This document shows positions 3,284 to 45,468 of a stretch of DNA of 49,072 bases, piece by piece. Origin of the DNA: Candidatus Aquidulcis sp. (GTDB lineage: Bacteria; Chloroflexota; Anaerolineae; UBA4142). The notes under the pieces are model-generated. The model searched no databases. It had not been told where the DNA came from and worked only from the letters and a program-made list of their open reading frames with translations. The stretch lies in the NCBI GenBank assembly GCA_020723345.1, contig DYJA01000047.1, forward strand, positions 1 to 49,072, given 5' to 3'. The position numbers were made by a program, and so were the translations under genes. The stretch's first letter is position 1; every line of letters starts with the position of its first letter.

Positions 3284-5128
3284 TCATCGTCCAATTTCTG
3301 ATCCTATTATAGCAAACCTTTTGAATTTTGCCAACAAGGAAACAAAGCCCACAACGCACAAACTTGCGACAGAAATCACCGCGCCAATCTGGCGAATCGG
3401 CGTATCTTCAAAACGTAATCGGACGCTGTGCGCTCCGGCGGGCACGCGCAAAAGAATCAATCCTTGCTCGCCGTACGGTTCCGGTTCGACGCGCCGCTCA
3501 TCCATCGTCGCGACCCAGCCGGGAAAATAGCGCGTGTACACCAACACGCGCGTCGGCGCGCTCGCGGTGACGCGCAACTCAGTCGATTGCCCGCCGTACC
3601 GCAGCGTCTCGACCGTCGCGCCTTCGTCCAGCGCGATGGCTTTATGCAATTTCTCTCCGGCGATATATTGCGCGACCAACGGCGAATCTTTGGGACGATC
3701 ACCCGTCATCCAAATCGTGTCGCCGAGCAATTCGCCGTACTTGGTTTCAAATTCCATTTGCGTTTGATAATTGAAAATCGCGTCAGTGTGTTGCGGTTGC
3801 GTGTACGCGTAATTCGCGACGACAAAAAGCAAAGCGACTGCGAGCGCGGGCGCAAGTTCGCGCGCGTCCTCGGCAAACGCGTACAACGCCGCGCCAGACA
3901 AGAACGCAAGCGCGAACGCCGCGATGATCAGCAAGCGCCACGGGAATTGCGCAAACCCGATCACCGCCGCGAACGGTTCCCACAACGGCGCGGAAATCGG
4001 CAGCATCGCGAACACCATCGCGCCGACAATCGCCGCGAACAGCCCGATATGCGCGCGGAGCGCGCCGCGCGTTTTGGCGATTGCGCCAACGGCGAGGAGG
4101 GCAAGCAGCGTCGGGATCAAACCGAGTTGCAGCGAGAATTGATCGCCGCCGCTTTCGCCCGCATAGCCATAGCCCCAAAACGGCGACAAGAGTTGATTCG
4201 CGTTGAGAAAATGTTTGCGATAGTTGAAAAAACCGCCGATGAGCGGATCGCTTGTCAAATATTTTTGCTCAAACAAAACCGGGAGCAGAAAGACGGCGGC
4301 GATACCAAGCGCGAGAAGAATAGATAAAAGCGGAAAGATGATCGATGGAAGAGAAAACGTGACGCGTGATGCGTGCTGCGTGCTGTGTGAAATGTGTTGC
4401 GTGATGCCTGACGCGTCCGGCGGTCGGCGGTCGGCGGTCGGTGGTCTCGATGCGGCGAGCAAAAACAAAATGTACAAACCGATAATCGGCGTGAACAACA
4501 CCGCCATCGAAATATGCGCGAGGATCAGCAGCGCGTACGAGAGCGCGGCGGCGGCGATATAGCGTGGTTGGCGCGTCATCGCGAGTTCGTAAAACGCCCA
4601 ACAGATCAGCGGCGGAAAAACGAACGCGGTCAATTCGGCTTGCGCGGCGCGAACGTACAGATCGACAAGGTGGTACGGAATGTAAACATACGCAATCGCC
4701 GCGACGAATCCGGCGTTTCTGCCTAGCACGCGCGAGGCAAAAAGATACATCGTCAGCGCAGAACAAAATACCGCGAGTCCATCTACCAATTTGACCGCGC
4801 TGACAAAATCGAATCCGACGAGATGGAACGCCTCGCCGACGAAAAAAGGGAGCGGCGCGAGAATGAGCCACAAGGGATAGCCGTAGCCGAACGTCATATC
4901 GGCTGCCCAACGCGGATACCACGCGCCGTCGCGCAGCGTCGCGTCGAACATTTGCAAAAAGTAAACCGAGTGCCGCGCGTCGTGCGCGTCGATGAAATAC
5001 CCCGGCGCGGTCAATGGCGCGAGCGCGAACGCGCAGAAGGCGAGAATCAGGGCGGCAGGATGAAGGATTGACTGTGGCGCAGTTCGCCACAGCCAGGATG
5101 AAATTTTCTGCGCAAGGTTATTTTTCAT
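3284..5128 (-). CDS. Polytopic membrane protein, PTPS-related/GT-C-like, third of three tandem paralogs
   Basis: Protein of 614 residues with about ten or more transmembrane helices and a C-terminal soluble beta domain. The first external loop, with HDARHSVYFLQMFD, DGAWYPRWAADMTFGYGYP and AYVYIPYH, is shared with its two upstream neighbours. It is typical of the family annotated as '6-pyruvoyl-tetrahydropterin synthase-related, membrane protein', which resembles lipid-linked glycosyltransferases (GT-C) and YfhO. A role in surface glycan assembly is inferred. Its ATG overlaps the TGA of the previous gene (ATGA). About the first 25 residues and residues about 227-257 (RPPTADRRP and TQHASRV stretches) are encoded by repeat elements. 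The second of these is an in-frame loop insertion between helices. Confidence 0.75.
   Translation of the reverse strand: MKNNLAQKISSWLWRTAPQSILHPAALILAFCAFALAPLTAPGYFIDAHDARHSVYFLQMFDATLRDGAWYPRWAADMTFGYGYPLWLILAPLPFFVGEAFHLVGFDFVSAVKLVDGLAVFCSALTMYLFASRVLGRNAGFVAAIAYVYIPYHLVDLYVRAAQAELTAFVFPPLICWAFYELAMTRQPRYIAAAALSYALLILAHISMAVLFTPIIGLYILFLLAASRPPTADRRPPDASGITQHISHSTQHASRVTFSLPSIIFPLLSILLALGIAAVFLLPVLFEQKYLTSDPLIGGFFNYRKHFLNANQLLSPFWGYGYAGESGGDQFSLQLGLIPTLLALLAVGAIAKTRGALRAHIGLFAAIVGAMVFAMLPISAPLWEPFAAVIGFAQFPWRLLIIAAFALAFLSGAALYAFAEDARELAPALAVALLFVVANYAYTQPQHTDAIFNYQTQMEFETKYGELLGDTIWMTGDRPKDSPLVAQYIAGEKLHKAIALDEGATVETLRYGGQSTELRVTASAPTRVLVYTRYFPGWVATMDERRVEPEPYGEQGLILLRVPAGAHSVRLRFEDTPIRQIGAVISVASLCVVGFVSLLAKFKRFAIIGSEIGR
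3306..3334 (-). promoter_or_regulatory. Promoter of the LysM gene
   Basis: On the minus strand TTGGCA (3334-3329) is followed after 17 bp by TATAAT (3311-3306). The predicted start of transcription is about 30-40 bases upstream of the LysM ATG. It lies within the last codons of the preceding membrane-protein gene. Confidence 0.65.
4358..4449. repeat. Heptamer repeat element inserted in frame in a membrane-protein gene
   Basis: Two 7-bp word arrays lie back to back. On the plus strand these are GTGATGC-like units (GTGATGC, GTGCTGC, GTGCTGT, GTGTTGC) and then about four GGCGGTC units. The host gene reads the opposite strand, where neither word creates a stop. The encoded residues fall in a loop between helices. 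The GTGATGC word also occurs at 6258-6285, 6939-6978 and 13049-13078, and the GGCGGTC word at 8152-8184 and 30949-30979. Confidence 0.85.
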
Positions 5129-5154: not shown

Positions 5155-6933
5155 GTCGCGTATGTCCCAGATCACCAACCCGAGCGCGAGCAAAATGCTT
5201 GCCGCCGAAATCCAATGTCCAGCGATGCGCGGCGGCGTGTCGTCGAAACGCAGCAACAACCACTGTTCTTGCCCTTGCGGAATGTGAACGCGGATCCGTC
5301 CCAACGGATCGTCCGGGTCAACGTCAAGCGGCAATTCGCGAATAATCTCGGTCGTCTTGGGCTTTGTCAAATACGCGCGCCAGCCGGGATAGTAAAAGGT
5401 GTTGAACGAAATCACCGCATCTTCTTGCGCGTGATAGACGATCTGCTCACCGTTCGCGTGCAACCCGGCGAAATCGGGCAGGACGCCGATCCAAACTTTG
5501 TCCGTGTCAATGTGCGTATAATCGATTTTTGATCTCAAGCGTTTCCCGGCAAAGTACACATCCGCCATCGGCGACCAATCGGGAATCTCCTTGACCGTCG
5601 AGGTCGAACCGGTCATTTCACCCGCGCTCTGCTGAAAGCGAAACAATCCCAGGATACTGACCGGTCCCTCTTGCGGTTCAAGGATCATTTGCGCGGTGAG
5701 ATATGGGAAACTGCCGAGCACGATCAGCAAACCGAGCAAGATCGTCGGCAAGGGAAAATGGTGCGCGGCGTTGTCCGGTTCGTCAGTCAAAACAATCGCG
5801 CCCGCGAGCGCGGCAAGCGGGAGCATCGTCAGCGTCAGCAGCCGCCAGGGAAATTGCGCGAAAGAAAGAATCGGGCGCAGCACGCTCCACAACGGCAGCG
5901 AAATCGCAAGCATGAGCGCGGCGACGATCACCGCCATCGCGAGAAAGAACACCCAAAAGCGGCGCGTGTTGCGCGGATTGCGCGCAATCGCGAGGATGGA
6001 AAAAATCGCGAGGAGCACCGGGACGACGCCGAGTTGAAACGACATGTCGTCGCGGGGGCCGGGATTGCTGATGCCAAAGCCCCACGCCGGGCTGAAGAGT
6101 TGGAAAAAATAGGCAAAGTGGTTGGTGTAATCGTAGTAATTTCCCAACCATTGATCGGTGCGGACGAATTGATATTCGAGCACGGCGGGGATGAAAAACA
6201 CGGCGACGATGCCAAGACCGAGCGCGAGCGCGGCGAGGGAGGGCAGACCGAGACGGATGAAACGTGATGCGTGATGCGTGTTCCGTTCGAGCGTCTGCAT
6301 CTCACCGAGGATCAGGAACAGAACCCAGGCACCCAGGACGACGGTGAAGAGCATCGCGACGCCGTTGTGCGAAAACATCATCGCGGCGTACGCGAACGCG
6401 GCGGCGACAATTGCGATACGATTTGAGCGGACGACGGTTTCATAGAAACCCCACAACGTCAGCGGCAAAAAAATCAGCGCGACCGATTCGGCGAGCGCGG
6501 CGCGCACGTACACGTCGGCGATATGGTACGGAATGTAGACGTACGCCAATCCGGAGAGAAACGCGGCTTGGCTCGATCCGGTCAAGCGTTTGATGAACGC
6601 GAACATCGCAACGCCGGATAACACGATTGCCAACGCGAAAACGATTTTCGTCGCGGTCACGAAATCGAAACCGAGCAGGTGGAACGCTTCGCTGACGTAC
6701 AACGCGCCCGGCGCGTAGATGTTGAACATCGGATAGCCGTAGCCAAACGTGTAATCGGGCGCCCAGCGCGGATAGTAGATGCCGTCCTGAATCGAGCGGT
6801 CGAACTCGAACAAAAAGTAAACCGAATGACGCCCATCGTGCGCGCCCCAAAAATAGCCGGGCGCGAGCAGTGGACTGATCGCAAAAAGAGAAAAGAGAAT
6901 CAGAAGGATAAGATAGGGATCGAGTCGTTTCAT
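5125..6933 (-). CDS. Polytopic membrane protein, PTPS-related/GT-C-like, second of three tandem paralogs
   Basis: Protein of 602 residues with a multi-helix membrane domain and a C-terminal soluble domain (from about residue 430) rich in beta structure. The N-terminal loop HDGRHSVYFLFEFD, PRWAPDYTFGYGYP and AYVYIPYHIADVYVRAA match the downstream paralog almost residue for residue, so the two arose by tandem duplication. The family is predicted to be GT-C-like, perhaps moving sugar or polyprenol-linked substrates across the membrane (inference). Residues 217-226 (RNTHHASRF) are encoded by a heptamer repeat in the same loop where the downstream paralog has its larger insertion. The last residues, GRRRKDKG, and the stop are encoded by repeat words. 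No ribosome-binding site is visible before the ATG because a repeat occupies that region (6939-6978). Confidence 0.76.
   Translation of the reverse strand: MKRLDPYLILLILFSLFAISPLLAPGYFWGAHDGRHSVYFLFEFDRSIQDGIYYPRWAPDYTFGYGYPMFNIYAPGALYVSEAFHLLGFDFVTATKIVFALAIVLSGVAMFAFIKRLTGSSQAAFLSGLAYVYIPYHIADVYVRAALAESVALIFLPLTLWGFYETVVRSNRIAIVAAAFAYAAMMFSHNGVAMLFTVVLGAWVLFLILGEMQTLERNTHHASRFIRLGLPSLAALALGLGIVAVFFIPAVLEYQFVRTDQWLGNYYDYTNHFAYFFQLFSPAWGFGISNPGPRDDMSFQLGVVPVLLAIFSILAIARNPRNTRRFWVFFLAMAVIVAALMLAISLPLWSVLRPILSFAQFPWRLLTLTMLPLAALAGAIVLTDEPDNAAHHFPLPTILLGLLIVLGSFPYLTAQMILEPQEGPVSILGLFRFQQSAGEMTGSTSTVKEIPDWSPMADVYFAGKRLRSKIDYTHIDTDKVWIGVLPDFAGLHANGEQIVYHAQEDAVISFNTFYYPGWRAYLTKPKTTEIIRELPLDVDPDDPLGRIRVHIPQGQEQWLLLRFDDTPPRIAGHWISAASILLALGLVIWDIRDKGRRRKDKG
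6258..6285. repeat. Short heptamer array inside a membrane-protein gene
   Basis: About three GTGATGC-type units on the plus strand. The gene reads the complement, encoding THHAS, with no stop. The position matches the insertion loop of the neighbouring paralog (4358-4449). Confidence 0.75.
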
Positions 6934-6938
6934 GGGAA

Positions 6939-6978
6939 GCGTAATACGTGATGCGTGTTACGTGTTGCGTGATATGCG
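6939..6978. repeat. Heptamer array between tandem membrane-protein genes
   Basis: Five or so imperfect 7-bp units (GTAATAC, GTGATGC, GTGTTAC, GTGTTGC, GTGATAT). On the minus strand the array begins directly after the TGA of the 6980-8656 gene and ends a few bases before the next ATG. It therefore fills the whole spacer, including the place of a ribosome-binding site. Confidence 0.85.
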
Positions 6979-6979
6979 C

Positions 6980-8656
6980 TCAGCGAATTTGCTTTGGTAA
7001 AAGTTGCTCGCTGATGATCGGATCGGGATCGCCGGGGCGCGGTACACTCACATGATCCGCGCCGGTGTCAGTGAGCGCGCGTCTGCCGGTCGCGGCGACG
7101 TACAGTCCAAATTCAATGTGATACCCCTCGGAAGGTCCGTCCACATCAATTTGAATTGTGTGCGTGTCGGAGATCACTTGCCCCGGCTGCCATTTGATCG
7201 TCGGCAGCGCGCCATCTTGCGGCTTGGAATCGTCTTGCGCGTAATATCCACCATTCTCGTGAACGGCGTGGACAAAGACCGTATAATCATGATCCACCGG
7301 ACGCAGCGCCTGCCACGTCAACCGCAGACGCACCGTCGCGCCATGCCGCAACGGTCCGATGATGCGATAGTCCAGCAGCGCGATTTCATTATCGCCGAAA
7401 ATCGCGATCGGCGGACGCGCCGGGTTGGCATCGAGAAAACGCGGCGCGAGATAGCCGTAACTTGCGACGACCGGCAGCGCGATGAAAAACGCGAACATCG
7501 TCGGGCGCGCCAACCGCGCGTCAAATTCGATTGCCGCGCCCGCGACGATGGCGAGCGCGAGTCCGACGAACATCAACAACTGCCACGGATACGCGGCGAA
7601 CAGATCGAACACGCGCCACACCGGCGCGGCAATTTCAAACGTGAGCACCACCAACACGATTGCCGCGCCAAGAAAGACCGCGACGACGCGACGTCGGTCG
7701 TTTGAAACGACCGCCTCAGAAAGGTTCAAGTCGGCTTGAAGCCGACTTGCATCTGATCTAGCCGTCGAATTTGATTCGACGGCGCCGCGCCACGCCAACA
7801 CCACCGCGACAATTGCCAAGCCCACCGGTACGACGCCAAGTTGAAATGGAAATTGATCGAGATAACTGCCGGTGCTCGCGCCGAATCCCCACAACGCCGA
7901 GAAAAGTTGAAAAGGCAAAACGAAATTCGCGGAAAAGCCATCGCGCGCGATATTCGCGCCATAGCGCAAAACGGTTGGGAGATACAAGAACGCGCCGACG
8001 ACAAGACCGCCGACCGCCGCCGACAGACTGCCGAAACCCTCGCGTCCGCGCAGCGCGGTGACGATTCCAAACGCGGTAAGCGAGAACAAAATCGCAAGAC
8101 CCGGCTGGGTAAGAAACAAAAAAGCAAATGGCAAAAGTGAAAACGCAACATCGCGCGGTCGGCGGTCGGCGGTCGGCGGTCGCGTGAGGACGAGCAACAC
8201 AAGCGGGAACAAGCTCCACCCCACCGCTTCCGCGAACGCGCCGCGCACGTACACGGTCGCGATGTGGTACGGCAAATAAACGTACACCGTCGCCGCGAGG
8301 AGCGCGCCGTTCGCGCTGAGCCAGCGGCGCGCGAGCGCGTACATCGTCAAGCCGCTTGCAATCCACGCGAGCGCGTAGACGAGTTTGATCGCGTCGAGAT
8401 AACTGAAACCGATCAGGTGGAAAATTTCCGCAACGAGGTACGGCAGCGCGCCATCGGTGCGGAATAGATCGAACGCGCGCCCGACGACCGGTGCCCACGC
8501 GAAGATCTGCGCCGGGTTCCGGTCGAGATCAATCAGGTTGTAGTAGGCGAGCAAGCCAGTGTGGGATTGAAACGCGCCGGGGTATTCCAGCGGCGCAATC
8601 GCAAAGACCGCGAGGAGAATCACCAACAGCGGATACAAAAATTTCACGGGGCGCAT
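6980..8656 (-). CDS. Polytopic membrane protein, PTPS-related/GT-C-like, first of three tandem paralogs
   Basis: Protein of up to 558 residues and the most diverged of the three paralogs. It keeps the helix/loop plan (FHLIGFSYLDAIKLVYALAW, VYVYLPYHIATVYVRGAFAE) but lacks the HDxRHSVYF loop of the others. It ends in an immunoglobulin-like beta domain (LRHGATVRLRLTWQALRP onward) also found in similar Chloroflexota proteins. Function is inferred as glycan-related membrane transfer. A TATAAT box overlaps the ATG at 8656, so translation probably begins at the GTG at 8647 on a leaderless transcript, giving MKFLYPLLVILL. Two in-frame repeat insertions are visible: residues about 158-169 (RPPTADRRPRD) and about 292-321 (three hairpins). 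Confidence 0.74.
   Translation of the reverse strand: MRPVKFLYPLLVILLAVFAIAPLEYPGAFQSHTGLLAYYNLIDLDRNPAQIFAWAPVVGRAFDLFRTDGALPYLVAEIFHLIGFSYLDAIKLVYALAWIASGLTMYALARRWLSANGALLAATVYVYLPYHIATVYVRGAFAEAVGWSLFPLVLLVLTRPPTADRRPRDVAFSLLPFAFLFLTQPGLAILFSLTAFGIVTALRGREGFGSLSAAVGGLVVGAFLYLPTVLRYGANIARDGFSANFVLPFQLFSALWGFGASTGSYLDQFPFQLGVVPVGLAIVAVVLAWRGAVESNSTARSDASRLQADLNLSEAVVSNDRRRVVAVFLGAAIVLVVLTFEIAAPVWRVFDLFAAYPWQLLMFVGLALAIVAGAAIEFDARLARPTMFAFFIALPVVASYGYLAPRFLDANPARPPIAIFGDNEIALLDYRIIGPLRHGATVRLRLTWQALRPVDHDYTVFVHAVHENGGYYAQDDSKPQDGALPTIKWQPGQVISDTHTIQIDVDGPSEGYHIEFGLYVAATGRRALTDTGADHVSVPRPGDPDPIISEQLLPKQIR
7695..7783. repeat. Three consecutive hairpins inside a coding sequence
   Basis: Three inverted repeats follow one another: arms CGGTCGTTT/AAACGACCG (7695-7713), CAAGTCGGCTT/AAGCCGACTTG (7727-7749) and GCCGTCGAAT/ATTCGACGGC (7761-7783). 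They share a TTGAA or TTGA-type centre. They are translated in frame without stops as a hydrophilic loop between two helices of the membrane protein. Confidence 0.85.
8152..8184. repeat. GGCGGTC heptamer array inside a coding sequence
   Basis: About four tandem GGCGGTC units, read on the minus strand as RPPTADRRP. The word has no stop codon in any frame of either strand. The same word is found at 4405-4448 and 30949-30979. Confidence 0.85.
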
Positions 8657-26689: not shown

Positions 26690-27445
26690 ATGGAAATCAA
26701 TCTCAAAGGCAAGACCGCGCTTGTCACAGGCGGAAACATCGGCATCGGTCGCGCGATTTCGCTCACGCTCGCCCGCTGCGGCGCGGACGTCGCGATCACG
26801 TACTTTGATCACGACCAAGCCGCCGCGCAGACCATTCGCGCGATGGGATGCCACTGTCCGTACCTCCATCTCGACGCGACGAACAGCGCGGAGGTCAACC
26901 AGGTTTTCGCGCAGGTCGCGAAAGAATTTGGCGGACATGTCGACATCCTCGTCAACAACGCCGGGCATCTCGTCGGGCGCGTGCCGATCGCGGAAATGCC
27001 AGATGAATTTTGGCGCAAGGTTATCGACGTCAACATGACGACCGCGTTCTATTGTTCGCGCGCGGTGATTCCATACATGAACACCGGTTGGGGACGCATC
27101 ATCAACATGTCATCGCTCGCCGGACGCGATGGCGGCGGCGCGGGCGCGGCGGCATATTCGGCGGCAAAAGCCGGGGTCGCAGGGTTGACGCGCGCGCTGG
27201 CGAAAGAATACGCCTCAAAAGGAATCACCGTAAACGCGCTTGCGCCCGGACTGATCCTGGGTACTCCGTTCCATGCAACATTCACCAAACCCGAAGTGCA
27301 GCAGAAAATCATCGCCAGCATTCCGGTCGGACGCGCGGGGACTCCCGAAGATGTGGCAGGCGCGGCGCTGTACTTGGTTTCCGATCTGGCAAGTTTCGTG
27401 ACCGGCGAAATCATCGAGATCAACGGCGGCGTGTACTTTGCGTGA
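26690..27445 (+). CDS. Short-chain dehydrogenase/reductase (SDR)
   Basis: Classical SDR of 251 residues. NAD(P)-binding motif TGGNIGIG, NNAG, and a catalytic Ser-Tyr-Lys set (MSSLAG, AYSAAKAG). The open frame goes further upstream, but AGGAG before the ATG at 26690 fixes the start. In a uronate-degradation setting it could reduce 4-deoxy-5-keto uronate or act as a KduD-like dehydrogenase (inference). The sequence alone does not distinguish these from FabG-like enzymes. Confidence 0.87.
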   Translation: MEINLKGKTALVTGGNIGIGRAISLTLARCGADVAITYFDHDQAAAQTIRAMGCHCPYLHLDATNSAEVNQVFAQVAKEFGGHVDILVNNAGHLVGRVPIAEMPDEFWRKVIDVNMTTAFYCSRAVIPYMNTGWGRIINMSSLAGRDGGGAGAAAYSAAKAGVAGLTRALAKEYASKGITVNALAPGLILGTPFHATFTKPEVQQKIIASIPVGRAGTPEDVAGAALYLVSDLASFVTGEIIEINGGVYFA

Positions 27446-27450
27446 CGCGT

Positions 27451-27540
27451 TTGTCATTGCGAGGAGCGTTTTTCGCGACGAAGCAATCCCCAATCCGCTC
27501 GTTGGAGACTGCTTCGGCAAAGCACGCCTCGCAATGACAA
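27451..27540. repeat. TTGTCATTGCGAGG inverted-repeat element
   Basis: 90-bp element with perfect 14-bp terminal inverted repeats TTGTCATTGCGAGG. The interior includes CGCGACGAAGCAATCCCCAA (27474-27493). A second copy with the same ends and interior lies inside a gene at 44371-44484. It fills the spacer between the SDR gene and the lyase gene. No transposase is present, which fits a MITE or REP-like element moved in trans. Confidence 0.9.
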
Positions 27541-27553
27541 CCTGGTAGAACGA

Positions 27554-29689
27554 ATGACCGGCTCCCTCTTTCTCGGAAACAAAACCTTCGCCGAATGGCG
27601 CGCCGCCGCGCAAACGACGCATCGCGCGCGATTCGCGCGTTTGATCGATCAAGCCGATTCGTACCTCACGTACCTGCCGCCGGTCGAGCATCCGCGCGAG
27701 ACGATCACGTACATCGGCATGGCAAGCGCGAATCTCGCGTTCGCGTTTCGCTTGAGCGACGACGCGCGCTATCTCGACCGCGCGCGTGAATGGATCAAGA
27801 TCGCGATTGGCTATCCGCATTGGGGCAAAGCCAACCTGCCCGATCACGATCTCGACGCGGGCTGGCTCTCGTTCGGCTTGGGACTCGCGCACGCTTGGAT
27901 TGGCGACGCGCTGCCGGGCGCCGAACGCGACGCGCTCCGCGCGAAATTGCTTTTGCAAGGCACGCGCTTGTACGAGTTTGCAATTTCCAAAGAGAATTGG
28001 TGGGGACCCGCGTACTGGCAAAACCACAACTGGATTTGCTTTGCCGGGCTCGCAACCGTCGCGTACGCGCTGGAGCGCGATCATCCCGAAACCAAAGCGT
28101 GGTCGCAAAACGCGACCGAAAATTTCCGCAAGGTGTTCGAGTTGCTCCCGGAGGACGGCTCGGATTACGAAGGCGTCGTCTACTGGTGCTACGGTTTTCC
28201 ATGGCTGCTCATCGCCGCCGATTTGATTCAGCAGCAAACTGGAATTGATCTGCACTCGTCCGAATTTCTCCGCAACACGTTCTACTATCGGCTTTACGCA
28301 TCCGCGCCGAATCTCGTCGACACTGCGAATTTTGGCGATTGCCACGACCGGCGTTCCGCGCACGCGGCGATGATCTACTATCGGCTGGCGAGTGTATACC
28401 GCAACGGACACGCGCAATGGCTCGCGGAACATTTCGAACAGATCGGTGAATGGGAACGCGAACGCAAACAAGGTTTGCTGCGCCCCAGTTCCGCCGCTCA
28501 CGCGTTTCTCGAATTCCTTTGGTACGATCCGACGGTCGCGCCAACGCCGCTTGCCGATTTGCCGACCGCGCGCGTCTTTCCCGATCTCGGCTTGGTCAGC
28601 GCGCGCAGCAACTGGTCGCCCAACGCAACGTACATCGCGTTCAAGTGCGCCAAGCCGAACGGCGAAAAGGCATGGGCACTCGGTCACGCGCTCGAACGCG
28701 AACGCGGGCAAAAGATCATCAAGACCGGACACGCGCACCCGGACGAAAACTCGTTCATCCTTGCGCGCGGCAGCGACTATCTCGCAGTAGACGAAGGGTA
28801 CAGCCAGAAAAAACAATCGCGTCATCACAACACGATTCTGATGGACGGCAAGGGACAATACCACGAAGGCGTCTACAACGTCGCCGACGGACTGGGCGAG
28901 GAATGGGGCGGCAAACTCGAAGCGCATTTCGTGGGACAACGCGTCGTCTACGCGCGCGGCGAAGCGGCGCGCGCATACGATCCCGCGCTGACGCTCGAAC
29001 ATTTTACGCGGCAAATGCTGTTCGTCGGTAGCAAGTACGTTGTGATTTGCGACGATCTTGCGTCGCGCGAGCCGCGCGAGTTTACGTGGCTGTTGCAGAC
29101 AGATTCCCAATTAGGAATTGCGAATTGCGAATTGCAAATCACAGAAGGCGAAACGCGCAATTCGCAACCCTGGCACCGCCCGCCAGGGCAGGTGTTCGCA
29201 ATTCGCAATTTTGAAACGCTGTTCGGTAGCACGCGTTTACGCGTTTCCGTTTGCGAACCGCACCAAGTCGCGGTAAAAAACGTCGAGCAAGAAATCGTCG
29301 CGTATCCGTCGTCGTCGACGCCGGAATGGGTGCTGCGGCACACGCAACACACGCTGATGCTGACGCCGGAACGCACGCGCGCGACGCGTTTCGTCGTCGC
29401 GCTCAACATCGAACATCCAACTGCCGCGCCAACGCGCGTCGAGCCGGTCGTGTGTGAAACAGGCAGCGCGCTCGCGCTCGCGGACGCGGAGACGCGCATT
29501 ATCGTCGCGTTTGCGCGTGACGCACGCGGCATCAAAATCGCCGGACCTATCGAAACGGACGCGCGCTGGCTCGTCGCGAATTTTCGCGGCGACGCATTGC
29601 AACATTTCGCGGCAGGCGACGCGACGCGCGTTGTGATCGGCGGGCAAGTGCGTTTTGAATCGCAGAAACCCGTTTTCTGCGAGCGGTAA
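27554..29689 (+). CDS. Heparinase II/III-fold polysaccharide lyase, cytoplasmic
   Basis: Protein of 711 residues with an alpha/alpha-toroid domain (about 1-330) followed by an anti-parallel beta-sandwich domain of the heparinase II/III family. Likely active-site elements are N157-H158 in WQNHNW, a tyrosine in DYEGVVYWCYG (about 205-213) and H393-x-H395-P-D in GHAHPDENSF. Enzymes with this plan cleave uronate-containing chains by beta-elimination, leaving a 4,5-unsaturated uronic acid. No signal peptide, so it acts on imported oligosaccharides. About residues 521-554 come from a repeat element (29112-29213) within the beta domain. The stop TAA abuts a palindrome. Exact substrate unknown. Confidence 0.82.
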   Translation: MTGSLFLGNKTFAEWRAAAQTTHRARFARLIDQADSYLTYLPPVEHPRETITYIGMASANLAFAFRLSDDARYLDRAREWIKIAIGYPHWGKANLPDHDLDAGWLSFGLGLAHAWIGDALPGAERDALRAKLLLQGTRLYEFAISKENWWGPAYWQNHNWICFAGLATVAYALERDHPETKAWSQNATENFRKVFELLPEDGSDYEGVVYWCYGFPWLLIAADLIQQQTGIDLHSSEFLRNTFYYRLYASAPNLVDTANFGDCHDRRSAHAAMIYYRLASVYRNGHAQWLAEHFEQIGEWERERKQGLLRPSSAAHAFLEFLWYDPTVAPTPLADLPTARVFPDLGLVSARSNWSPNATYIAFKCAKPNGEKAWALGHALERERGQKIIKTGHAHPDENSFILARGSDYLAVDEGYSQKKQSRHHNTILMDGKGQYHEGVYNVADGLGEEWGGKLEAHFVGQRVVYARGEAARAYDPALTLEHFTRQMLFVGSKYVVICDDLASREPREFTWLLQTDSQLGIANCELQITEGETRNSQPWHRPPGQVFAIRNFETLFGSTRLRVSVCEPHQVAVKNVEQEIVAYPSSSTPEWVLRHTQHTLMLTPERTRATRFVVALNIEHPTAAPTRVEPVVCETGSALALADAETRIIVAFARDARGIKIAGPIETDARWLVANFRGDALQHFAAGDATRVVIGGQVRFESQKPVFCER
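29112..29213. repeat. GAATTGC heptamer element inside the lyase gene
   Basis: Left arm: three GAATTGC units and a degenerate continuation. Right arm: inverted GCAATTC units (two or more). Between them is a TGGCACCGCCCGCCAGGG hairpin. It is translated in frame without stops as about 34 residues (LGIANCELQITEGE onward). Confidence 0.85.
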
Positions 29690-43296: not shown

Positions 43297-45324
43297 ATGC
43301 CAATCTTCCATTCCAACGATCTAGCCCGCGCGCGTCAGCGCGTCAAGGAAAATTCCTGGTCTGCCAAAATCCTCGCCGCGATTCGCGCGCGCGCGGACGA
43401 CTGGCTCGCGCATCCCGCCAAGGTACCCACGCTCGCCGGGGGCTGGGTCCACGATTACGCCTGCCCCGATCACTGGTGCGCGCTCGCGTTCGATCCGGCG
43501 TCGCCGTACGCGCACCGGTGTCCGCACGGCGAGACGCGCGCGGGCGACAAATTGGACGCGGCGTGGCGCGTGTTGGAGCATCGCCGCATCGCGAATGCCG
43601 CGCGCGACCTCGCACTGATTTTCGCGCTGACCGATGAGCACACGTACGCAAATGCCGCGTGCAAGATTCTATCGCAGTACGCGCACCAGTACGCGAATTA
43701 TGCCGGAGCAGACAGCGCGCCGGGGTGGATGCTCAAAGGACGCGTGTTTCAGCAAGCCCTCACCGAAGCGATTTGGACGATTCCGATCGCGCAAGCGTAC
43801 GACCTCATTCGGATGTCGCTGTACGAAGAACAAGACGCGCAGATCGTCAACGCGCTCTTGCGTCCAATCGTCGGCACGCTCAGCATCGCGCAGGACGATT
43901 TGGTCAATCAGCAAAAGAAACTCCAAAGTAATTACAACGCGTGGTTGATTGCCGCGCTCGGTCTGCTCGGTTACGCGCTGCGCGATCCCGTTCTCGTCGA
44001 ACACGCGATTGACAGTCCCGCCGGTTTTCGCGCGCACCTTGCCGCCGCGATTCTGCCCGATGGCTGGGAACACGAAGGAACGCCCTACTATCACAATTTC
44101 GTAGCCCTCGGCTACACGATTCTCGCGCAAGCCGCGCGCGCGAATGACCGCGACCTTTACGCCGAACGCGGACCCGGCGGACAATCCATCGAAGCGATGT
44201 GGCGCGCGTTTGCCGCGCTCGCGTTCCCCGACGGTACGATTCCACAGATCGGCGACGGCGCGTATTGGCGCGGCAGCACGTTCGCCGCGGAAATTTGCGA
44301 GACGTACGAAGTCGCGCTCGCGCGGACGGACGATCCTGAATTCGCGTGGCTGCTCAAATGTACGTACGATTTGTCATTGCGAGGAGCGCATCCTGAGCGG
44401 AGCGGAGCGCAGTCGAAGGATCGCGCGACGAAGCAATCCCCAAGTGACGCGGAGATCGCTTCGCACCAACCGCTCGCAATGACAGCGCGCACACGCGACG
44501 CCTGGACGGCGCTGCTCTTCGCCGAACGCGACCTCGCCGACGCGCCAACGCCCGCGCGCAAATCGGTTTGCTTTTCCTCCGTCGGCATCGCGGTTCTGCG
44601 CGATCATACGAACACCCAACAAGTTTGCGTTCCGTTTGGCGCGTACGCCGGCGCGCACAGTCATCTCGACCGCGCGGCGATCCAGGTTTTTCCCTGGTCG
44701 ACGGATCCGGGCAACACTCCGTACGGCACCGCGGCGCGCGCCGAGTGGTATCGCCAAACTGCCGCGCACAACACCATCGTCGTGGATGGACAACCGCAAA
44801 CAGAGTGCCAAGCGCAATTGCTCAACTTTGAAGTCACGCCCGACACGACGATTCTGTGGCTTTCAGCAGACGAGGCGTATCCCGGCGTGCGCCTGACGCG
44901 CTTGATCACGATGGCGAATGGCATCGTCAAAGAATCGACGCTCGTCGATTCCGACACGGATCACACCTACGATTGGATCGTTCACCTCGACGACGAATGT
45001 GAAATCGCCGACTTGGTGCTAGAACCTGTCCTCGGCGAATTCGCCGAGACCGGCGCGTATCGTTTTATCGTCCCGTACGCGCGGCGACGGTACGCGGGCA
45101 AATTTCTAGTCCGAGCCAAATGCGCGGAAAAACCTTTGCGCTTGACGGTCACCGCCGACGCGCCGCTCGAAATCATTCTCGCTCGCGCGCCCGCGCGCGC
45201 CGACGCGCCGCTCAAGCCGCGCCAAATGCTGATCGCGCGCGCGCGCCAACACCGCGTCAATTTCGTTGTGACAAGCCAGGTGACAAGAACACGAGACGGG
45301 AGAAGAAGGCATGAGAGGGGATGA
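43297..45324 (+). CDS. Heparinase II/III-family lyase-like protein, cytoplasmic, with altered active-site motif
   Basis: Protein of 675 residues, alpha-toroid domain then heparinase II/III beta-sandwich, no signal peptide. It has the family's early Cys/His-rich segment (ACPDHWC, HRCPHGE), DGWEHEGTPYYHN (255-267) and AHSHLDRAAI (about 452). Where the other two lyases have Asn-His (QNHNW, RHNHQSW), this one has S-N212-Y213-N-A-W. The neutralising histidine is replaced by tyrosine, so activity or specificity may differ. Residues 359-396 are encoded by an inserted 114-bp repeat element, exactly 38 codons. The C-terminal tail TRTRDGRRRHERG and the TGA come from another repeat. It has its own weak promoter and no strong ribosome-binding site. 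Confidence 0.78.
   Translation: MPIFHSNDLARARQRVKENSWSAKILAAIRARADDWLAHPAKVPTLAGGWVHDYACPDHWCALAFDPASPYAHRCPHGETRAGDKLDAAWRVLEHRRIANAARDLALIFALTDEHTYANAACKILSQYAHQYANYAGADSAPGWMLKGRVFQQALTEAIWTIPIAQAYDLIRMSLYEEQDAQIVNALLRPIVGTLSIAQDDLVNQQKKLQSNYNAWLIAALGLLGYALRDPVLVEHAIDSPAGFRAHLAAAILPDGWEHEGTPYYHNFVALGYTILAQAARANDRDLYAERGPGGQSIEAMWRAFAALAFPDGTIPQIGDGAYWRGSTFAAEICETYEVALARTDDPEFAWLLKCTYDLSLRGAHPERSGAQSKDRATKQSPSDAEIASHQPLAMTARTRDAWTALLFAERDLADAPTPARKSVCFSSVGIAVLRDHTNTQQVCVPFGAYAGAHSHLDRAAIQVFPWSTDPGNTPYGTAARAEWYRQTAAHNTIVVDGQPQTECQAQLLNFEVTPDTTILWLSADEAYPGVRLTRLITMANGIVKESTLVDSDTDHTYDWIVHLDDECEIADLVLEPVLGEFAETGAYRFIVPYARRRYAGKFLVRAKCAEKPLRLTVTADAPLEIILARAPARADAPLKPRQMLIARARQHRVNFVVTSQVTRTRDGRRRHERG
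44371..44484. repeat. TTGTCATTGCGAG element inserted in frame in the lyase gene
   Basis: 114-bp copy of the element at 27451-27540, with ends TTGTCATTGCGAG and CTCGCAATGACA and the shared interior CGCGACGAAGCAATCCCCAA (44424-44443). An extra inverted segment, ATCCTGAGCG...CGAAGGAT (44390-44422), is nested in it. Its length is a multiple of three and it has no stop in the gene's frame. Confidence 0.92.
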
Positions 45325-45439
45325 AAAGGCAGAAGAGGACGGAGACGGCAAAGAAGGCGACGAAGGCGCGATAGCCCTCTACGCCCTCCGTGCCTTCTCC
45401 GCCATCTGAGACTTCTGATGCCCTCTTCTCCCTTCTCAC
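45268..45439. repeat. Long word-repeat hairpin around the lyase 3' end
   Basis: Left arm of purine-rich GAAGGC/GAGAAG words (about 45290-45368), right arm of inverted GCCCTC/GCCTTCTC words (about 45371-45436). The lyase TGA (45322-45324) lies in the left arm. The same word style recurs at 47557-47700. The 144-base spacer before the YbjQ gene is otherwise its AAGGAGG site. Confidence 0.82.
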
Positions 45440-45468
45440 GATGCAAACGATAGACTCAAGGAGGATCT

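Follow-up and report, generated by a model that had tools for sequence, protein, structure and literature searches.

A repeat element in frame within a polysaccharide lyase gene

How did a repeat that also occupies an intergenic spacer come to lie in frame inside an enzyme gene, and did the protein gain it or always possess it? We examined this question in a stretch of 49,072 nucleotides from Candidatus Aquidulcis sp. (the window), which is contig C69 of a 6.34-Mb draft genome in 132 contigs. The host gene (43297–45324, forward strand) encodes a 675-aa alginate/heparinase-type polysaccharide lyase with Pfam matches to Alginate_lyase (PF05426, residues 47–305) and Hepar_II_III_C (PF07940, residues 420–570); against the PDB, it matched PL17-type alginate lyases (E = 1.4 × 10−25). 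A first-pass annotation had described a 114-bp segment on the forward strand (44371–44484) as making up exactly codons 359–396 of this ORF without a stop, and had placed it between helix-rich and beta-rich parts of the protein. Both descriptions were borne out: residues 359–396 (LSLRGAHPERSGAQSKDRATKQSPSDAEIASHQPLAMT) fall between the two Pfam matches, and the predicted structure agrees. The same annotation had suggested looking for a disordered loop here. In the AlphaFold model, residues 360–399 had a mean pLDDT of about 30, in keeping with such a loop in the lyase, though the model was built on a shallow alignment of five sequences and was low elsewhere too.

The ends of the segment are 12-nt inverted repeats: TGTCATTGCGAG on the left (44372–44383), which consists of a TGTC tag and an ATTGC stem, and CTCGCAATGACA on the right (44473–44484). 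Between them lie the inner arm of a left REP unit, GAAGCAATC (44430–44438), and that of a right, inverted REP unit, GGAGATCGCTTC (44451–44462), which has one mismatch to the usual GGAGATTGCTTC; all four are given on the forward strand. A second inverted repeat, GAAGCAATCCCC...GGAGATCGCTTC, occupies the middle of the element. A palindrome, ATCCTGAGCG...GAAGGAT (44390–44421), is nested in the loop of the left arm; this is the nested segment ending in GGAT that had been pointed out earlier, and the same module was found in the arms of many further copies. When the folding of the arms was compared with that of shuffled sequences, the advantage was modest.

A 90-bp copy of the same family (27451–27540, forward strand) lies between the end of an ORF at 27445 and an ATG at 27554. 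As had been proposed, this spacer is filled by a relative of the lyase element: the two share an 18-mer at 44371 and 27451, the 12-nt right end and an identical 20-bp core, CGCGACGAAGCAATCCCCAA, at 44424 and 27474. The spacer copy lacks the nested ATCCTGAGCG...GAAGGAT module of the lyase copy.

Copies across the genome and its relatives

The 12-nt end occurred 148 times genome-wide, compared with a single occurrence of the reversed control. Among the copies listed, which were fetched with their flanks, 67 inverted pairs of 73–207 bp could be joined into full elements. At 90% over 113 nt (E = 2.5 × 10−37), the lyase element matched a copy that lies within a TIR-NACHT gene of another contig, so these two copies are close relatives at unrelated loci, and together with the count of ends this match places the element far beyond chance.

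We then searched 119 related genomes, nearly the whole class-level sample, with a half-unit pattern composed of the end, the arm and GAAGCAATC, using the reversed pattern as a control. The half-unit was present in 52 of these genomes, match counts per genome ranged from 0 to 455, and all reversed controls gave zero. Copy number does not track kinship and the distribution is patchy: 353 matches were found in the congener G001, 1 in the congener G002 and 0 in G004, a member of the same family. We found no plasmid or phage carrier of the full element at an E value of 1 × 10−3 and no Rfam match across 44200–44650, and in the literature searched nothing relevant on the exact element sequence or its peptide. 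A sister family of the GTCATTTCGAG type, with ends TGTCATTTCGAG and inner arm GAGAAATCTC, was present at L036, L097, L098 and L099 and in the P-type ATPase orthologue of G004 (L144); its outer and inner arms appear to have changed together.

Empty sites and in-frame copies in other genes

Alignment of the lyase with related proteins, recommended in the first-pass annotation as a check on the insertion borders, revealed a clean empty site in the orthologues of G001, which belongs to the same genus, and of G013 and G004, which belong to two other genera. In place of the 38 residues, which have no counterpart in these proteins, the orthologues read TYRGAARD (G001), TYRGAPRD (G013) and HYRQHRRD (G004), and from these empty sites we conclude that 38 codons were gained in the lyase. 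Around the site, the G001 lyase is 78% identical over residues 1–357 and 70% identical over residues 399–665, with a dN of 0.16 and a dS of 0.77. In G008, from a fourth genus, a related element occupies this lyase position and is read in the same frame, but its inner loop contains a different palindrome, CCCTCCCCTCGACAAGGGGAGGG; 58 element matches occur elsewhere in that genome. Thus the residues did not turn up in genomes free of the repeat, which had been named as the pattern that would speak against insertion: G004 has neither the residues nor a single pattern match, and G008 has both. The insertions in our genome and in G008 may be independent, or may share a common descent followed by loss, a reading for which differences of a single codon, and junctions shared exactly elsewhere (L073, L075), leave room.

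The earlier view that a protein has accepted one of these elements stands for the lyase, but not as a sole case, as at least 16 more genes of the genome carry one. We called coding regions using a codon-usage model trained on the long ORFs of the window, and the coding status of flanks was judged by codon usage and homology. Among the copies listed, 17 of the 71 analysed were intragenic, with both flanks coding in the same frame and a continuous open frame throughout. Two same-strand exceptions among the 71 proved to be intergenic on inspection; one of these, between carA and carB (L006, C60:43990–47109, 1502–1620), adds about 25 residues to the C-terminus of CarA, with the stop inside the element. 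Based on Pfam, the hosts include HemC, RsmG/GidB, a P-type ATPase, a GlcD-type FAD oxidase, a melibiase-like hydrolase, a histidine kinase, TIR-NACHT and CHAT proteins, PMT-type membrane proteins and a CitE/HpcH-type lyase, in which the domain match spans the element. In HemC (porphobilinogen deaminase), the element lies between residues aligned to 87 and 91 of the E. coli structure 1PDA. Empty sites were found for all 14 genes examined, namely the lyase and 13 others, with orthologues from up to five related genomes each. In the congener G001, 8 of 40 sampled copies were in frame and none was disruptive, and its HemC copy occupies a site common to our genome.

Some genes hold more than one insertion. 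The TIR-NACHT gene at L002 (C5:80750–83864) has two different in-frame palindromes, one of the TGTCATTCTGAGCGAAGCGAAGAATC... type at 1003–1070 and the TGTCATTGCGAG element at 1501–1615, and at L069 (C66:83316–87153), two elements (1501–1618 and 2194–2338) lie in one 723-aa membrane-protein ORF, where the upstream one may precede the true start. Separately, an in-frame G001 copy (L176, G001:C3:33912–34899, 451–538) lies in an apparent MutS2, which recalls the DNA-repair bias reported for intragenic REPs.

Reading frames and the inserted peptide

Element frames were open in 222 of 426 cases; given a further factor of one third for length, the chance that a random insertion is open and also keeps the host frame is about one in six. 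All intragenic copies found were open and in frame, against this one sixth expected by chance, an excess for which selection acting on the host protein offers the simple explanation. The frames themselves were used unevenly: of the 18 in-frame copies in our genome, 13 use the frame beginning VIAS..., 5 use SLRG... and none uses the cysteine-containing CHCEE... frame, though many of the elements have it open (probability 0.001, given which frames are open in them). Such avoidance suggests screening of the peptide itself, perhaps for cysteine, and need not mean that the peptide is of benefit. For annotators, the practical warning is to treat VIASEAKQSP...LAMT and SLRG...LAMT stretches as repeats rather than as conserved motifs.

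Shared loops with different palindromes

At the kinase site (L075), the exact junction is common to our genome, G001 and G003, and at L073 it is common to our genome and G003. Because such junctions are shared across genera, some insertions are older than the genera, and their arms and nested modules have changed since. Other orthologous sites hold different guests. The L045 orthologues in G013 and G008 carry unrelated palindromes, of the CCCTCTCC and CCCTCCCCC types, at the same few codons; the L073 orthologue in G001 carries an unrelated palindrome, AACCTTCGAGGTCT...AGACCTCGAAGGTT, and in the melibiase-like gene G004 and G013 both have another, GTAGGGGCG...CGCCCC. At the P-type ATPase site, G004 has the GTCATTTCGAG sister family, and G013 has an apparent collapsed remnant at the L007 site. 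At the lyase and at L068, the empty sites of G001 resemble those of other genera, which argues for either a gain in our genome after its split from G001 or a very precise loss.

These insertion sites are better described as length-variable loops between conserved blocks than as DNA palindromes. A further reading, which we offer tentatively and consider rather doubtful, is that a set of them in this family of Chloroflexota are landing loops, in which unrelated palindrome families share a few codons of orthologous proteins across genera, nesting and remaining in frame. Should gains and losses be as common as the patchy distribution suggests, the elements would have to be excised precisely as single strands and re-inserted, and they would keep supplying variation in loop length. 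The filled, empty and differently filled versions of one loop in related organisms offer a natural experiment in the acceptance of foreign peptides by proteins.

In the CitE-type orthologues of G008 (L142) and G003 (L141), the inner loop of the element holds tandem TTGGAAATTGGAAA / CCAATCTCCAATCTCC repeats and is still in frame.

Mobility and alternative explanations

We assign a probability of roughly 0.88 to the reading that a mobile element, palindromic and non-autonomous, was inserted in an interdomain loop of the lyase; it would consist of two CGTC/TGTC-tagged REP units joined head to head, whose loops further palindromes have enlarged. The first-pass annotation had proposed that these elements move. 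Copy number and the pattern of presence and absence point to movement, but the target-site duplication that it suggested looking for was absent both at the lyase site and across the family: for 46 copies with intact ends, tested at k of 2–9 and three offsets, the observed flank matches equalled the shuffled expectation. Nor did we find a link to a transposase; none of the five Y1_Tnp loci of the genome, read with their flanks, was bordered by the element, and no RAYT/Y1 transposase lay beside the copies.

The absence of target duplications, the hairpin ends and the patchy distribution fit an HUH/Y1-type mode, in which hairpins in single-stranded DNA would be moved by an enzyme acting in trans. 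In the lyase, the element would have landed between the two domains, in a loop that is short and varies in length. Because the element contains few stop codons, an insertion with a net length that is a multiple of three would add a peptide of 25–48 residues, rich in S, A, K and Q, instead of breaking the frame. Selection would purge insertions that break proteins and leave those in permissive loops, where the added peptide would be near-neutral and probably disordered.

A classical DDE-transposase MITE, that is, a deletion derivative of an IS moved via its terminal inverted repeats, would account for the 70–170 bp size, the 12-bp terminal inverted repeats and the many copies. We nonetheless find it improbable, as the 46 intact-end copies have no target-site duplication beyond the shuffled expectation, the inside of the element is a REP dimer rather than IS sequence, and the matches listed include no pair of ends at IS length. 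We give little credence to the idea that the segment is an ancestral loop of the protein that was lost in G001, G013 and G004. It would agree with the related element found at this place and in this frame in G008, a member of another genus, and with the exact kinase junction (L075) in our genome, G001 and G003, so that some insertions must be old; yet the segment recurs throughout the genome, TYRGA is read at the empty site in both G001 and G013, and G004 combines an empty site with 0 pattern matches.

It also seems quite unlikely that the insertion was kept for a selected function, with the peptide or an mRNA hairpin regulating or improving the host protein. The unused CHCEE... frame does indicate that the peptide is not a matter of indifference, and exact junctions have been kept across genera while the arms vary. 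Frame avoidance, however, need mean merely that one peptide is worse than the others; moreover, the hosts have no common function, their orthologues manage without the insert, and the arms and nested modules vary freely between genera. Hardly credible, finally, is that a DNA palindrome or hairpin at the target attracts the elements: while G001 and G013 do have perfect palindromes of 12 and 14 bp (CGCGGCGCCGCG, CGCGGCGCGCCGCG) at their empty lyase sites, a comparison of 40 empty orthologous sites with other positions of the same sequences showed no difference in fold energy or palindrome length (Wilcoxon p = 0.75 and 0.34).

Comparison with known palindromic elements

As described in the text of Di Nocera et al. 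(2013, PMC3733652), CGTC REPs carry a CGTC tag, often TGTC or CCTC, a stem of 8–9 bp starting with AT, a loop of 4–5 nt and a short unpaired tail with the consensus CCA; they mostly form head-to-head dimers with the tags outside, some of them intragenic, and occur in tens to hundreds of copies with no associated transposase gene. Set against this text definition, the element in the lyase is similar in that nearly all full copies start with TGTC outside an ATTGC stem, and in its AT-first stem, C-rich tail, head-to-head dimers, copy number, partly intragenic location and lack of transposase association. It differs in its arms, which are mostly 10–60 nt and often contain nested palindromes (compact arms exist, as at L056), and in its tail, which is CYCC in most copies (CCCCA or CTCCA/CTCCG) rather than CCA. 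A compact CGTC dimer of Novosphingobium resinovorum matched the element at 26 of 26 nt, and Novosphingobium copies have the tail CCA; the match to N. aromaticivorans, a species named in that paper, was 92%, with the CGTC family itself compared by its text description. Judged by that description, the element is built like a CGTC/TGTC-tagged REP dimer in head-to-head arrangement, with palindrome-enlarged arms. The list of five phyla given there for CGTC repeats does not include Chloroflexi. The same text identifies RPE-4 and RPE-6 of R. conorii as intragenic CGTC repeats and describes different REPs at about the same site in recB of two Xanthomonas species.

Knowledge of in-frame palindromes in Rickettsia goes back to 2000 (reviews: PMC2229807, PMC10969869). 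Rickettsia palindromic elements (RPEs), as these sources and PMC3733652 describe them, are 100–150 bp long, lie in frame in conserved genes of unrelated function as well as between genes, and are reported in 19 reading frames, and an RPE-bearing guanylate kinase is active. Like RPE-1 and RPE-4/RPE-6, the element described here is inserted in frame in many unrelated conserved genes (17 in our genome, 8 in the G001 sample). Unlike them, it belongs to another phylum and a GC-rich genome of 6.3 Mb, its loops are shared with several unrelated palindrome families, and it is known from sequence alone. By analogy, it appears to work like an RPE, and we do not class it as one. GTAG REPs are also palindromic dimers with intragenic cases in O. 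terrae and others, according to the text of PMC3733652; here, the tag is TGTC instead of GTAG and, in contrast to GTAG REPs with RAYT, the Y1 transposase genes are not flanked by the element. ERIC, the 107-bp Correia repeats and YPAL are small, non-autonomous repeats that form in-frame gene fusions (PMC2229807), as this element does, whereas the target-site duplications are theirs alone.

In-frame palindromes are therefore a known kind, and the set described here is a variant with nested arms, shared loops and a phylum new to the published CGTC list. In the literature, we found no report from Chloroflexota of in-frame palindromic insertion like that of Rickettsia. In-frame mobile palindromes have so far been regarded as special to Rickettsia and a few others; here, they occur in Chloroflexota, with hosts that include such highly conserved enzymes as porphobilinogen deaminase and RsmG.

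Other repeats in the window

The C-terminus of the lyase (window positions 45276–45440) overruns the end of its homologues into a spacer rich in AGAAGG/GACGAAGG (VTRTRDGRRRHERG), so the stop region that the gene once had seems to have given way to a low-complexity repeat from downstream. Degenerate GTGATGCGTGATGCGTG repeats occur at three sites in the window, 4355–4429, 6246–6299 and 6937–6990.
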